Source of the DNA: Sporichthya brevicatena
GTDB taxonomy: Bacteria; Actinomycetota; Actinomycetes; Sporichthyales; Sporichthyaceae
Assembly: GCF_039525035.1 (NCBI RefSeq)
Contig: NZ_BAAAHE010000021.1
Coordinates: forward strand, 56,930-120,929
Direction of reading: 5' to 3'
Length of the DNA stretch: 64,000 nucleotides
Positions 15,159-23,242 of this stretch are shown one piece after another. The notes under the pieces were generated by a model. That model had not been told where the DNA came from and ran no database searches. It worked only from the letters and a program-made list of their open reading frames with translations. The translations under genes and the position numbers were made by a program. How positions within the stretch are numbered: position 1 is the stretch's first letter; every line of letters begins with the position of its first letter.

Positions 15159-15250
15159 CGCGACGAGCGTACGCGGATGGAGTGCGGCTCTTGATCACGT
15201 AGGCGCGGGATGCCTAGGTTTCGGCGACCGACACGAAAGGGGGGCCGGCC

Positions 15251-17284
15251 ATGTCCGCACGCTCACTGGCGCTCGGCCTCACGAGCGCGATGTGCGTCTC
15301 GCTGGCCATGACACTCGCCGCACCGACTGCGCAGGCCGCGACTCCGGTGACACTCCACGTCAGCGCGACCGGCAACGACGCCGGGAACTGTACGACCGCT
15401 CCGGGGTGCCGCACGATCCAGCGCGCGGTCAACGTCGCCGCGTCGTTCCTGCCGACGCCGATCGACGCGACGATCCTCGTCGGGCCGGGCACGTTCGCCG
15501 AGAGCAGCGCCGACACCAGCGCGGGGCTGACGATCACGTCGTCCGCGTTCAGCGCGCTGAAGATCGCCGGCGCCGGAGCCAACCTCACGACGATCAGCCC
15601 GGCGCAGGCGCGGCGCGTGATCCGCATCGCCGGGGCGTACCCCGTGACGATCTCCGGGGTCACGATCACCGGCGGCAAGGCCCCGGCGGCCACCGCGCAG
15701 GCCCCCGTCAACGACGGTGGCGGCATCCTGCGGACGGGCGGCGGCAACCTCACCCTCGACGGCGTCGTCCTGACCAGGAACGGGGCCGGCCCGGGACTCG
15801 CCGGGACGGCCGGCGCCGACCGCGGCACCGGTTCGCCCGACGGCGCCGACGGCGGTACGTCCACCGCCGGCGGGCCGGGCGGCAGCGGCGGCGGCGTCGC
15901 GATGGCCGGCGGGGTGCTCACGGTCGTCAACAGCACGGTCGAGCGCAACGCCGCGGGAGCGGGCGGCGCCGGTGGCAAGGGCGGCAACGGTGGCGACGGG
16001 CGCAGCGGCGGCCTGCTCTCCTCCGCGGGCGCCGGCGGCGACGGGGCCGCGGGCAGCGCAGGCGGGATCGGCGGGTCCGGCGGGGGGATCGCCTTCGCCG
16101 GCAGCGTTCTGACGATCGCGAACTCGACGATCGTGTCGAACGCGTCCGGGCGGGGCGGCGCCGGCGGCGCGGGCGGTTCGGGCGGCGCAGGTCACGGATC
16201 GAAGGCCGGCGGCAACGCGGCGCGCGGTGGATCCGGCGGCGCGGGCGGCCAGGGCGGCGGCATCGCCCTGCTCTCCGGCGTCACTGGCGCGACGCTGACG
16301 CACGTCACCCTCGCGGCCAACGCGACCGACGCCGGTGGCGCGGCCGGGGCCAACGGCACTGTCGGCAAGGGCAAGACCAACGGCTCCCTGGTCGGCGCGG
16401 CCCCGACCAACGGTGGTCAGTTCCTCTCCGGTGGTCTCGCCGCGGCGGCGGGCACCGTCACCCTCGAGGCGTCCCTGCTCGCCAACGCACAGGCGAACTG
16501 CGTCCCCGCGGCGACGACCGCGGTCGCATCGGTCGCGAGCGACGCATCCTGCTTCACCGACGGCTCCGGCCCGGCCGAGGCGCCGAACAAGGTCAGCACG
16601 TCCGCGAGCGCACTCTCGGCGCTCGCCGCCAACGGCGCGCGGACTCCGACGGCCGCCGTCGCGAACACCAACGCCGCCTTCGGCGCGGTCCCCGTGTCGT
16701 CCGGCCTCTGCGGCGGCGACACGAACGGCCAGGACCAACGCGGCGAGGCCCGGCCCGGGATCTCCGGCCCGAATGCCTGCACCGCCGGTGCGTACGAGCC
16801 GCAGGTGCCGCCGGTCGCACCGACGATCACCGGCAAGATCGCCAGCGCCGCCGGCAAGACCAAGTACGGCTGGTACCGCGACACCGTCACGGTGACCTTC
16901 ACGTGCACGCCGGGCAGTTCGCCGCTGACCGCCCCGTGCCCGAAGCCGATGGTGCTCTCGAGCTCGGGGGCCAACCGCGGCGGCACCGTCACGATCACCA
17001 ACCAGCAGGGCCTGAGCGCCTCGATCAAGATCGCGCTGAACATCGACAAGAACAAGCCGACGATCGCGATCAAGGGCGTCCAGAAGGGCAAGACCTACAC
17101 CGCGCCCCGCCAGGTCCGCTGCGTCGCCGGTGACAGCCTCTCCGGCCCGTACATGTGCCAGGTCACCGCGACCGCGAAGCTGGTCAGGAAGAACCGCGCC
17201 GTCCGCGTCGACTACACCGCCACCGCCCTCGACCGCGCCGGCAACGTCCGGACGAAGAAGGGCTACTACGTCTACACCCGATGA
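15251..17284 (+). CDS. Secreted Gly-rich parallel beta-helix-like protein
   Basis: A 677-residue exported protein; GAAAGGGGGG lies before the ATG and the signal peptide ends near AQAA-TP (about residue 30). LHVSATGNDAGNCTTAPGCRTIQRAVNVA starts a pectate-lyase-like right-handed beta helix of the kind seen in polymorphic surface proteins. Residues 190-370 are a Gly/Ala/Ser-rich insert (GGxGGxGG runs) interrupted by VLTVVNSTVERN and VLTIANSTIVSN helix coils. From about 510 an Ig-like or Cys-containing domain (ITGKIASAAGKTKYGW, FTCTPGSS) ends in a basic strand-rich tail. No catalytic site is visible. It may be a surface adhesin or matrix protein. Confidence 0.72.
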   Translation: MSARSLALGLTSAMCVSLAMTLAAPTAQAATPVTLHVSATGNDAGNCTTAPGCRTIQRAVNVAASFLPTPIDATILVGPGTFAESSADTSAGLTITSSAFSALKIAGAGANLTTISPAQARRVIRIAGAYPVTISGVTITGGKAPAATAQAPVNDGGGILRTGGGNLTLDGVVLTRNGAGPGLAGTAGADRGTGSPDGADGGTSTAGGPGGSGGGVAMAGGVLTVVNSTVERNAAGAGGAGGKGGNGGDGRSGGLLSSAGAGGDGAAGSAGGIGGSGGGIAFAGSVLTIANSTIVSNASGRGGAGGAGGSGGAGHGSKAGGNAARGGSGGAGGQGGGIALLSGVTGATLTHVTLAANATDAGGAAGANGTVGKGKTNGSLVGAAPTNGGQFLSGGLAAAAGTVTLEASLLANAQANCVPAATTAVASVASDASCFTDGSGPAEAPNKVSTSASALSALAANGARTPTAAVANTNAAFGAVPVSSGLCGGDTNGQDQRGEARPGISGPNACTAGAYEPQVPPVAPTITGKIASAAGKTKYGWYRDTVTVTFTCTPGSSPLTAPCPKPMVLSSSGANRGGTVTITNQQGLSASIKIALNIDKNKPTIAIKGVQKGKTYTAPRQVRCVAGDSLSGPYMCQVTATAKLVRKNRAVRVDYTATALDRAGNVRTKKGYYVYTR

Positions 17285-17350
17285 CGGCCGACGACGGTCG
17301 ATGACGGTCGATGACGGTCGCCGACTGCCGATGACGGTCGATGACGGCCG
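17281..17350 (+). repeat. 10-bp tandem repeat array (ATGACGGTCG)
   Basis: Seven consecutive 10-base units fill 17281-17350: three exact ATGACGGTCG, two ATGACGGCCG, and two degenerate (ACGACGGTCG, CCGACTGCCG). The first unit contains the TGA stop of the beta-helix gene. Such arrays are prone to slippage, so the copy number may vary between strains. Confidence 0.8.
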
Positions 17351-17376
17351 CGCCGTCGTCCGAATCCGTGGTGAAG

Positions 17377-17547
17377 AAAGGGTGACACCCCTTACTGCGC
17401 AGTAAGGGGTGTCACCCCTTCTTGACAATGGGCGACGTCAAAAGGGGTGTCACCCTTTCCTGACGAGCGACGACGTCAAGAAAGGGTGTCACCCTTTCTT
17501 GACAGCCAGGCGGTGCCAATCCCCCGTTCAACAAGGGGTGTCACCCC

Positions 17548-17549
<2 letters not shown>
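17377..17549. repeat. Cluster of five GGGTG-N-CACCC palindromic repeats
   Basis: Five copies of a palindromic core (A)AAGGGTG-N-CACCCTT(T) occur in about 170 bases. Copies 1 and 2 are in opposite orientation and together make a perfect 38-base palindrome at 17380-17417 (arms of 19). Copy 3 at 17437-17464 is imperfect. Copy 4 at 17475-17503 is a perfect 14-base inverted repeat around a T, bordered by GTCAAG/CTTGAC. Copy 5 at 17533-17549 is perfect and overlaps the stop codon of the carboxylase gene. They separate two convergent genes and can act as terminators, but the number of copies exceeds that need; a REP-like family is plausible. Confidence 0.85.
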
Positions 17550-23088
<5,539 letters not shown>

Positions 23089-23242
23089 CGATGTCCTCTC
23101 GTCCGCCGCACCCTGCGCGGGGGTCTCCCGCTGTTCGGGGAAACCCTATGGCCAGGCCCGCCGACGTCCGCGGTGTCCTCCGCGACAACAATCGGCGGAC
23201 GGTTTTGGATCCCCGCAGCAGGTTCCCGAGAAAAGGCTTCCC

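Follow-up and report, generated by a model that had tools for sequence, protein, structure and literature searches.

The window analysed here, 64,000 nucleotides of Sporichthya brevicatena DNA, holds at 17377-17549 a run of 173 bases between convergent genes that carries five GGGTG-T/A-CACCC palindromes. On the left is an open reading frame of 677 aa (15251..17284, + strand) for which Pfam and NCBIfam give no match, and on the right a multidomain biotin-dependent (acetyl-CoA type) carboxylase of 1846 aa (17548..23088, - strand). The first palindromic unit (17377-17393) is A-centred and the second (17404-17420), third (17442-17458), fourth (17481-17497) and fifth (17533-17549) are T-centred, so that only units 1 and 2 pair head-to-head, in a REPIN-like arrangement (17371..17427) around the spacer ACTGCGCAGT (17394-17403). 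This pair contains a perfect 38-bp palindrome (17380-17417, dyad at 17398/17399). Units 3 and 5 are solo units on the + strand, AAGGGGTGTCACCCTTT and AAGGGGTGTCACCCCTT, the latter sharing two bases with the carboxylase stop codon (TTA at 17548-17550 on the + strand). Unit 4 lies inside a perfect odd palindrome of 29 bp (17475-17503, + strand), with 14-nt arms, one central base and GTCAAG/CTTGAC ends.

The unit coordinates confirm an earlier note on this DNA, which had reported five palindromic cores including the perfect 38-bp and 29-bp ones. The cluster has 10 both-strand matches at up to three mismatches against 0.06 expected, a number reached in none of 100 shuffles. As RNA it is predicted to fold at -106.7 kcal/mol, whereas shuffles average -66.5 (z -8.1). 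An Rfam scan gave no family at gathering score, the weak miRNA and sRNA matches being hairpin look-alikes. A 10-bp unit (CGATGACGGT type) is also repeated in seven near copies at 17269-17358, about the stop codon of the 677-aa frame and directly beyond it, and short tandem duplications of this kind after stop codons are visible beside other sites of the palindrome.

The units belong to a dispersed family, here called F1, whose copies were counted in the S. brevicatena genome (G000; 5.2 Mb, 89 contigs), a sister species of the same genus (G001), a third species of the family (G002) and two further family genomes from a second genus, which complete the set G000-G004. At up to two mismatches over the 17-mer, the F1 unit gives 255 forward and 261 reverse matches in S. 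brevicatena (reversed control 0/0), and thus about 255 units, since palindromic units mostly match both strands; the sister species gives 245/225. The 38-bp pair core, at up to three mismatches, is present in 103 copies in S. brevicatena and 75 in the sister species, and no copy was found in 391 of the 393 class genomes searched. The 57-bp stretch 17371..17427 occurs at about 40 places in S. brevicatena, and the solo form of 17475-17503 recurs in the sister species (4502516) and nearly so in S. brevicatena (C21:44929). The earlier proposal of a REP-like dispersed palindromic family is thus borne out, with most units in inverted pairs at gene 3' ends; other copies abound in the genome and in the sister species, and strict conservation at a single place in all relatives is not what is seen. 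The cluster is one F1 pair and three solo units, piled up in S. brevicatena.

In its basic form F1 spans about 58 bp and consists of two T/A-centred palindromes, each of 17 nt, set head-to-head on either side of the spacer ACTGCGCAGT. The consensus of 51 S. brevicatena pairs is TGTCAAGAAAGGGTGACACCCCTTACTGCGCAGTAAGGGGTGTCACCCTTTCTTGACA, outside which conservation fades. One A-centred and one T-centred unit placed head-to-head is the commonest arrangement, found in exactly this form at 33/80 places in S. brevicatena and 23/44 in the sister species (fetched stretches, counting places of F1 and of the second family, F2, together). Pair ends often read TGTCAAG...CTTGACA, and 140 of them fall into the classes TGTC (50), CGTC (21), TGTG (17), CGTG (8), GGTC (4) and GGTG (2), with 38 unclassed. 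In about 12 to 14 of the 140, CTTGACA gives way to a recurrent alternative, CTTTTCCACAGG (for example L160 4125-4152 and L164 9031-9058). Tandem arrays of F1 units with a 33-bp period that includes the pair spacer are found at L174 7663-7795 and L158 8986-9090.

F2, found in S. brevicatena (184/174 matches) and the sister species (86/92), is TGGAGATGTCATCTCCA with GTGCA-type borders and has the TGTCA core in common with F1. It is placed more loosely than F1, some copies lying within called genes. The third species has few F1 matches and palindromes of its own, in which other self-complementary stems surround the TGTCA core; its families AACGGATGTCATCCGTT, AAGGCGTGTCACGCCTT and AAGGGATGTCATCCCTT (loci L119, L121-L137) lie mostly close after stop codons. 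At the stringency searched, the two second-genus genomes gave no palindromes of F1, F2 or third-species type beyond chance-level hits.

Genes outside the window were called with a simple in-house caller, whose stops are more reliable than its rather rough starts. The earlier note had asked whether copies sit between convergent genes: 37 of the 52 intergenic F1 places in S. brevicatena do, 15 are tandem and none is divergent, where random placement by length gives means of 7.8, 28.3 and 15.9. The sister species has 21 convergent, 6 tandem and 0 divergent among 27 (random 4.1, 14.6 and 8.2). F1 places lie a median of 17-18 nt from the nearest stop codon, tandem copies are closer to the upstream stop in 14/15 cases in S. 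brevicatena and 6/6 in the sister species, and 2 of 55 F1-only places lie within a called gene. F1 is found in 37 of 84 convergent gaps of at least 40 nt in the fetched S. brevicatena stretches and in 21 of 57 in four near-whole contigs alone, fractions that are not genome-wide rates because the stretches from both species were partly picked around known copies. Of the 140 pair ends, 89% have at least five T residues among the nine bases that follow the stem core, giving the terminator hallmark of a GC-rich hairpin and then a T tract, just after stop codons.

As read from sequence, this placement and these T tracts are the pattern of bidirectional intrinsic terminators. Since RNA from either strand would fold into a long hairpin, with a GC-rich stem followed by a T-rich stretch, F1 probably acts as such a terminator, stopping transcription from both sides just past the stop codons and chiefly between convergent genes. 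The earlier argument, that a single terminator is the most that two convergent genes require, does not rule this role out, given the share of convergent gaps that F1 occupies and the two-unit version that the sister species retains at the window locus. A generic terminator pattern scan of 15200-23100 lends no support, since it found 2 sites, one of them inside the cluster, against 1.5 in shuffles. In solo units, outer-stem complementarity beyond distance 8 is hardly above that of mixed left and right arms, so compensatory change there adds no further support.

Most F1 copies look inherited rather than lately moved. At the window locus the sister species has two units with another spacer instead of five, and also a unit at the position of the window's unit 5 (17533..17549), whilst the inverted repeat that fills the gap in the third species is unrelated. 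A loose search places a unit at the orthologous sister-species position for 27 of 38 placed S. brevicatena places; this search takes in chance hits in coding sequence, so that the 11 and 7 ‘absent’ rows of the comparison are mostly not elements. When 24 S. brevicatena pairs were placed, 18 had one sister-species pair between the flanks. Orthologous pair cores differ by a mean of 3.1 of 46 against 3.6 for non-orthologous ones, a slightly greater likeness that suggests inheritance; the 3.1 includes mispaired rows (3/18, where adjacent pairs map to one sister-species pair or the sister-species spacer differs). The ungapped outer flanks of the orthologous pairs differ far more than the cores, which, with the shared positions, speaks for maintenance of the element. 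Homogenisation of the element, as judged from these ortholog and paralog distances, was rejected as having only a slight effect.

Some places do differ between the two species. S. brevicatena has F1 pairs at two places (C1:128206, C21:5345) and an F2 pair at one (C4:40108) that the sister species lacks, and these were accepted as real together with C7:186885 (S. brevicatena only) and one site found only in the sister species. No target-site duplication, a MITE trait, is visible at C4:40108, C1:128206 or C21:5345 against the sister species, the flanks having diverged, and the comparison of the two genomes yielded no clean transposition event.

The explanation that we consider likely is that F1 is a REP-like dispersed palindrome that works as a bidirectional terminator and has spread by enzyme-driven copying. 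Its dispersal, its pairing and its placement at 3' ends are observed, as is the absence of a Y1 transposase; termination and copying through an enzyme are inferred. The PF01797 profile (Y1, RAYT-type) gave no matches in G000-G004, one of which is a single contig, with positive controls, so the REP-associated tyrosine transposase that had been suggested is absent from S. brevicatena and from the four other family genomes. Among 118 relatives, 12 possess a Y1 gene, and the 20 Y1 loci taken from them carry no F1-like palindrome.

A version of this explanation that names the lost enzyme is possible, if a good deal less probable than the general form. F1 would have been spread by a Y1 transposase of RAYT or CGTC type that has since been lost, and its relics kept as terminators. 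F1 fits REPs in being paired, placed at 3' ends and present in many copies, 71/140 F1 pair ends are TGTC or CGTC, and most copies are common to S. brevicatena and the sister species; CGTC REPs, in the part of their description available, likewise lack a dedicated transposase and form head-to-head dimers (PMC3733652). However, none of the five family genomes has a Y1 gene, the stem and loop of F1 are unlike those so described for the CGTC families, and the presence/absence differences between the two species suggest some movement after their split.

A different enzyme, proposed from an association seen in the sequences, is an unlikely candidate for the mobiliser. In a tree of the 46 DUF222 (PF02720) genes of S. 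brevicatena and the sister species, 14 of the 15 members of one DUF222-HNH (‘13E12’) clade are immediately preceded by F1, F2 or both, in an order that does not vary. The other 31 genes have neither near the start, though five of these negatives have less than 610 nt of upstream sequence, and 2 of the 31 have F2 units downstream. F1 and F2 might then be non-autonomous partners of the element, which would carry both as a 5' module. The HNH nuclease of this clade, taking the part played by RAYT in REP systems, would drive copying or conversion among gene ends and so move or homogenise the palindromes, copies being retained as bidirectional terminators. Within the clade the gene copies group by species, even though the host sequence beside several loci is shared between the two; at some of these loci the species differ in their 5' modules, which looks like conversion. 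Two loci have the gene in the sister species and F1 plus F2 alone in S. brevicatena. To our knowledge, no activity of the DUF222-HNH family on palindromic DNA of this type has been described. In the third species, 0/10 DUF222 loci carry its own dispersed palindrome types, which are located elsewhere. Upstream of its closest homologue (57%, C368) the host sequence resembles that of C4:138919 but contains no palindrome, which may mean that the gene was there before F1. As the link is missing from this species, in whose palindromes the TGTCA core is retained, DUF222 as the mobiliser is treated only as a lead. Between the F1 units of the window there is no gene and hence no DUF222-HNH gene.

Modules of the clade with both F1 and F2 are found at L164 19806-19903, L173 10482-10574, L186 2910-3040 and L188 8360-8470. 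At L186 and L188, in the sister species, the module further includes TTATCCACA, which we take to be a DnaA-box-like word.

The constancy of the TGTCA core in F1, F2 and the third-species families, while the stems change, could instead reflect a dimeric DNA-binding protein that recognises a palindrome centred on it, the cluster being an array of its sites. We consider this improbable, since regulatory sites are expected near gene starts, whereas F1 follows stop codons and none of 79 intergenic places in the two species is divergent. Ordinary terminators that have come to look alike through convergence rather than copying would be placed as F1 is, and the unrelated inverted repeat of the third species in the same gap would suit them, but the recurrence of a 38-bp sequence, spacer included, 103 times at up to three mismatches makes this scarcely credible.

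What is found is a REP-like system of two palindrome families in actinomycetes, five genomes of whose family lack a Y1 transposase, with F1 occupying over a third of the convergent gaps in the stretches read. It opens two questions to testing: by what route REPs with no transposase of their own disperse, and whether their hosts retain them for termination. Through its link to the palindromes, DUF222-HNH is a candidate for the enzyme, which would give a possible role to a family that is widespread in actinobacteria and as yet without an assigned function.

Among known systems are the REP13E12 loci of Mycobacterium; these include DUF222 and, in the available parts of two papers (PMC13061034, PMC10589994), are called hotspots of gene conversion. 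They have the same Pfam domain, PF02720, and are likewise multi-copy paralogues, but the upstream F1/F2 modules are seen only in one clade of S. brevicatena and its sister species. A word-based search of the open-licence literature gave no paper tying DUF222 to dispersed palindromes, PMC10589994 being no exception as far as its available text goes, and none on the F1 family, the same being true of that of PMC12306157. With bidirectional intrinsic terminators F1 has in common a both-strand hairpin with a T-rich tail between convergent genes, and it differs from them in being a stereotyped sequence at about 100 loci. The GTAG-tagged REPs that go with a RAYT are, in the excerpts available, short intergenic palindromes in more than 100 copies, in inverted pairs and near gene 3' ends. 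F1 is like these REPs and REPINs in copy number (255/261 unit matches and 103 pairs per genome), in its inverted pairs (BIME/REPIN) and in its extragenic 3'-end placement, but it is not filed with them, because no GTAG tag occurs in the 102/140 classed pair ends and its genomes lack the Y1 transposase.

The CGTC REPs come closer. In the portion available of Di Nocera et al. 2013 (PMC3733652), a paper whose text lacks the word ‘actinobacteria’, they have no dedicated transposase, form mainly head-to-head dimers, often have CGTC changed to TGTC, and prefer convergent or unidirectional gaps close to ORF 3' ends; each has a stem of 8-9 bp, a loop of 4-5 bp and a CCA tail. Against that description, the stems of F1 are almost perfectly paired up to one central base, with no such loop, and the consensus lacks a CCA tail; CGTC or TGTC stands at 71 of the 140 pair ends scored, a partial likeness without being a consistent tag. 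In the lack of a dedicated transposase, in the head-to-head dimers and in the convergent or tandem placement at 3' ends the two are alike. The nearest described kind to F1 is thus the REP and, within the REPs, those tagged with CGTC.
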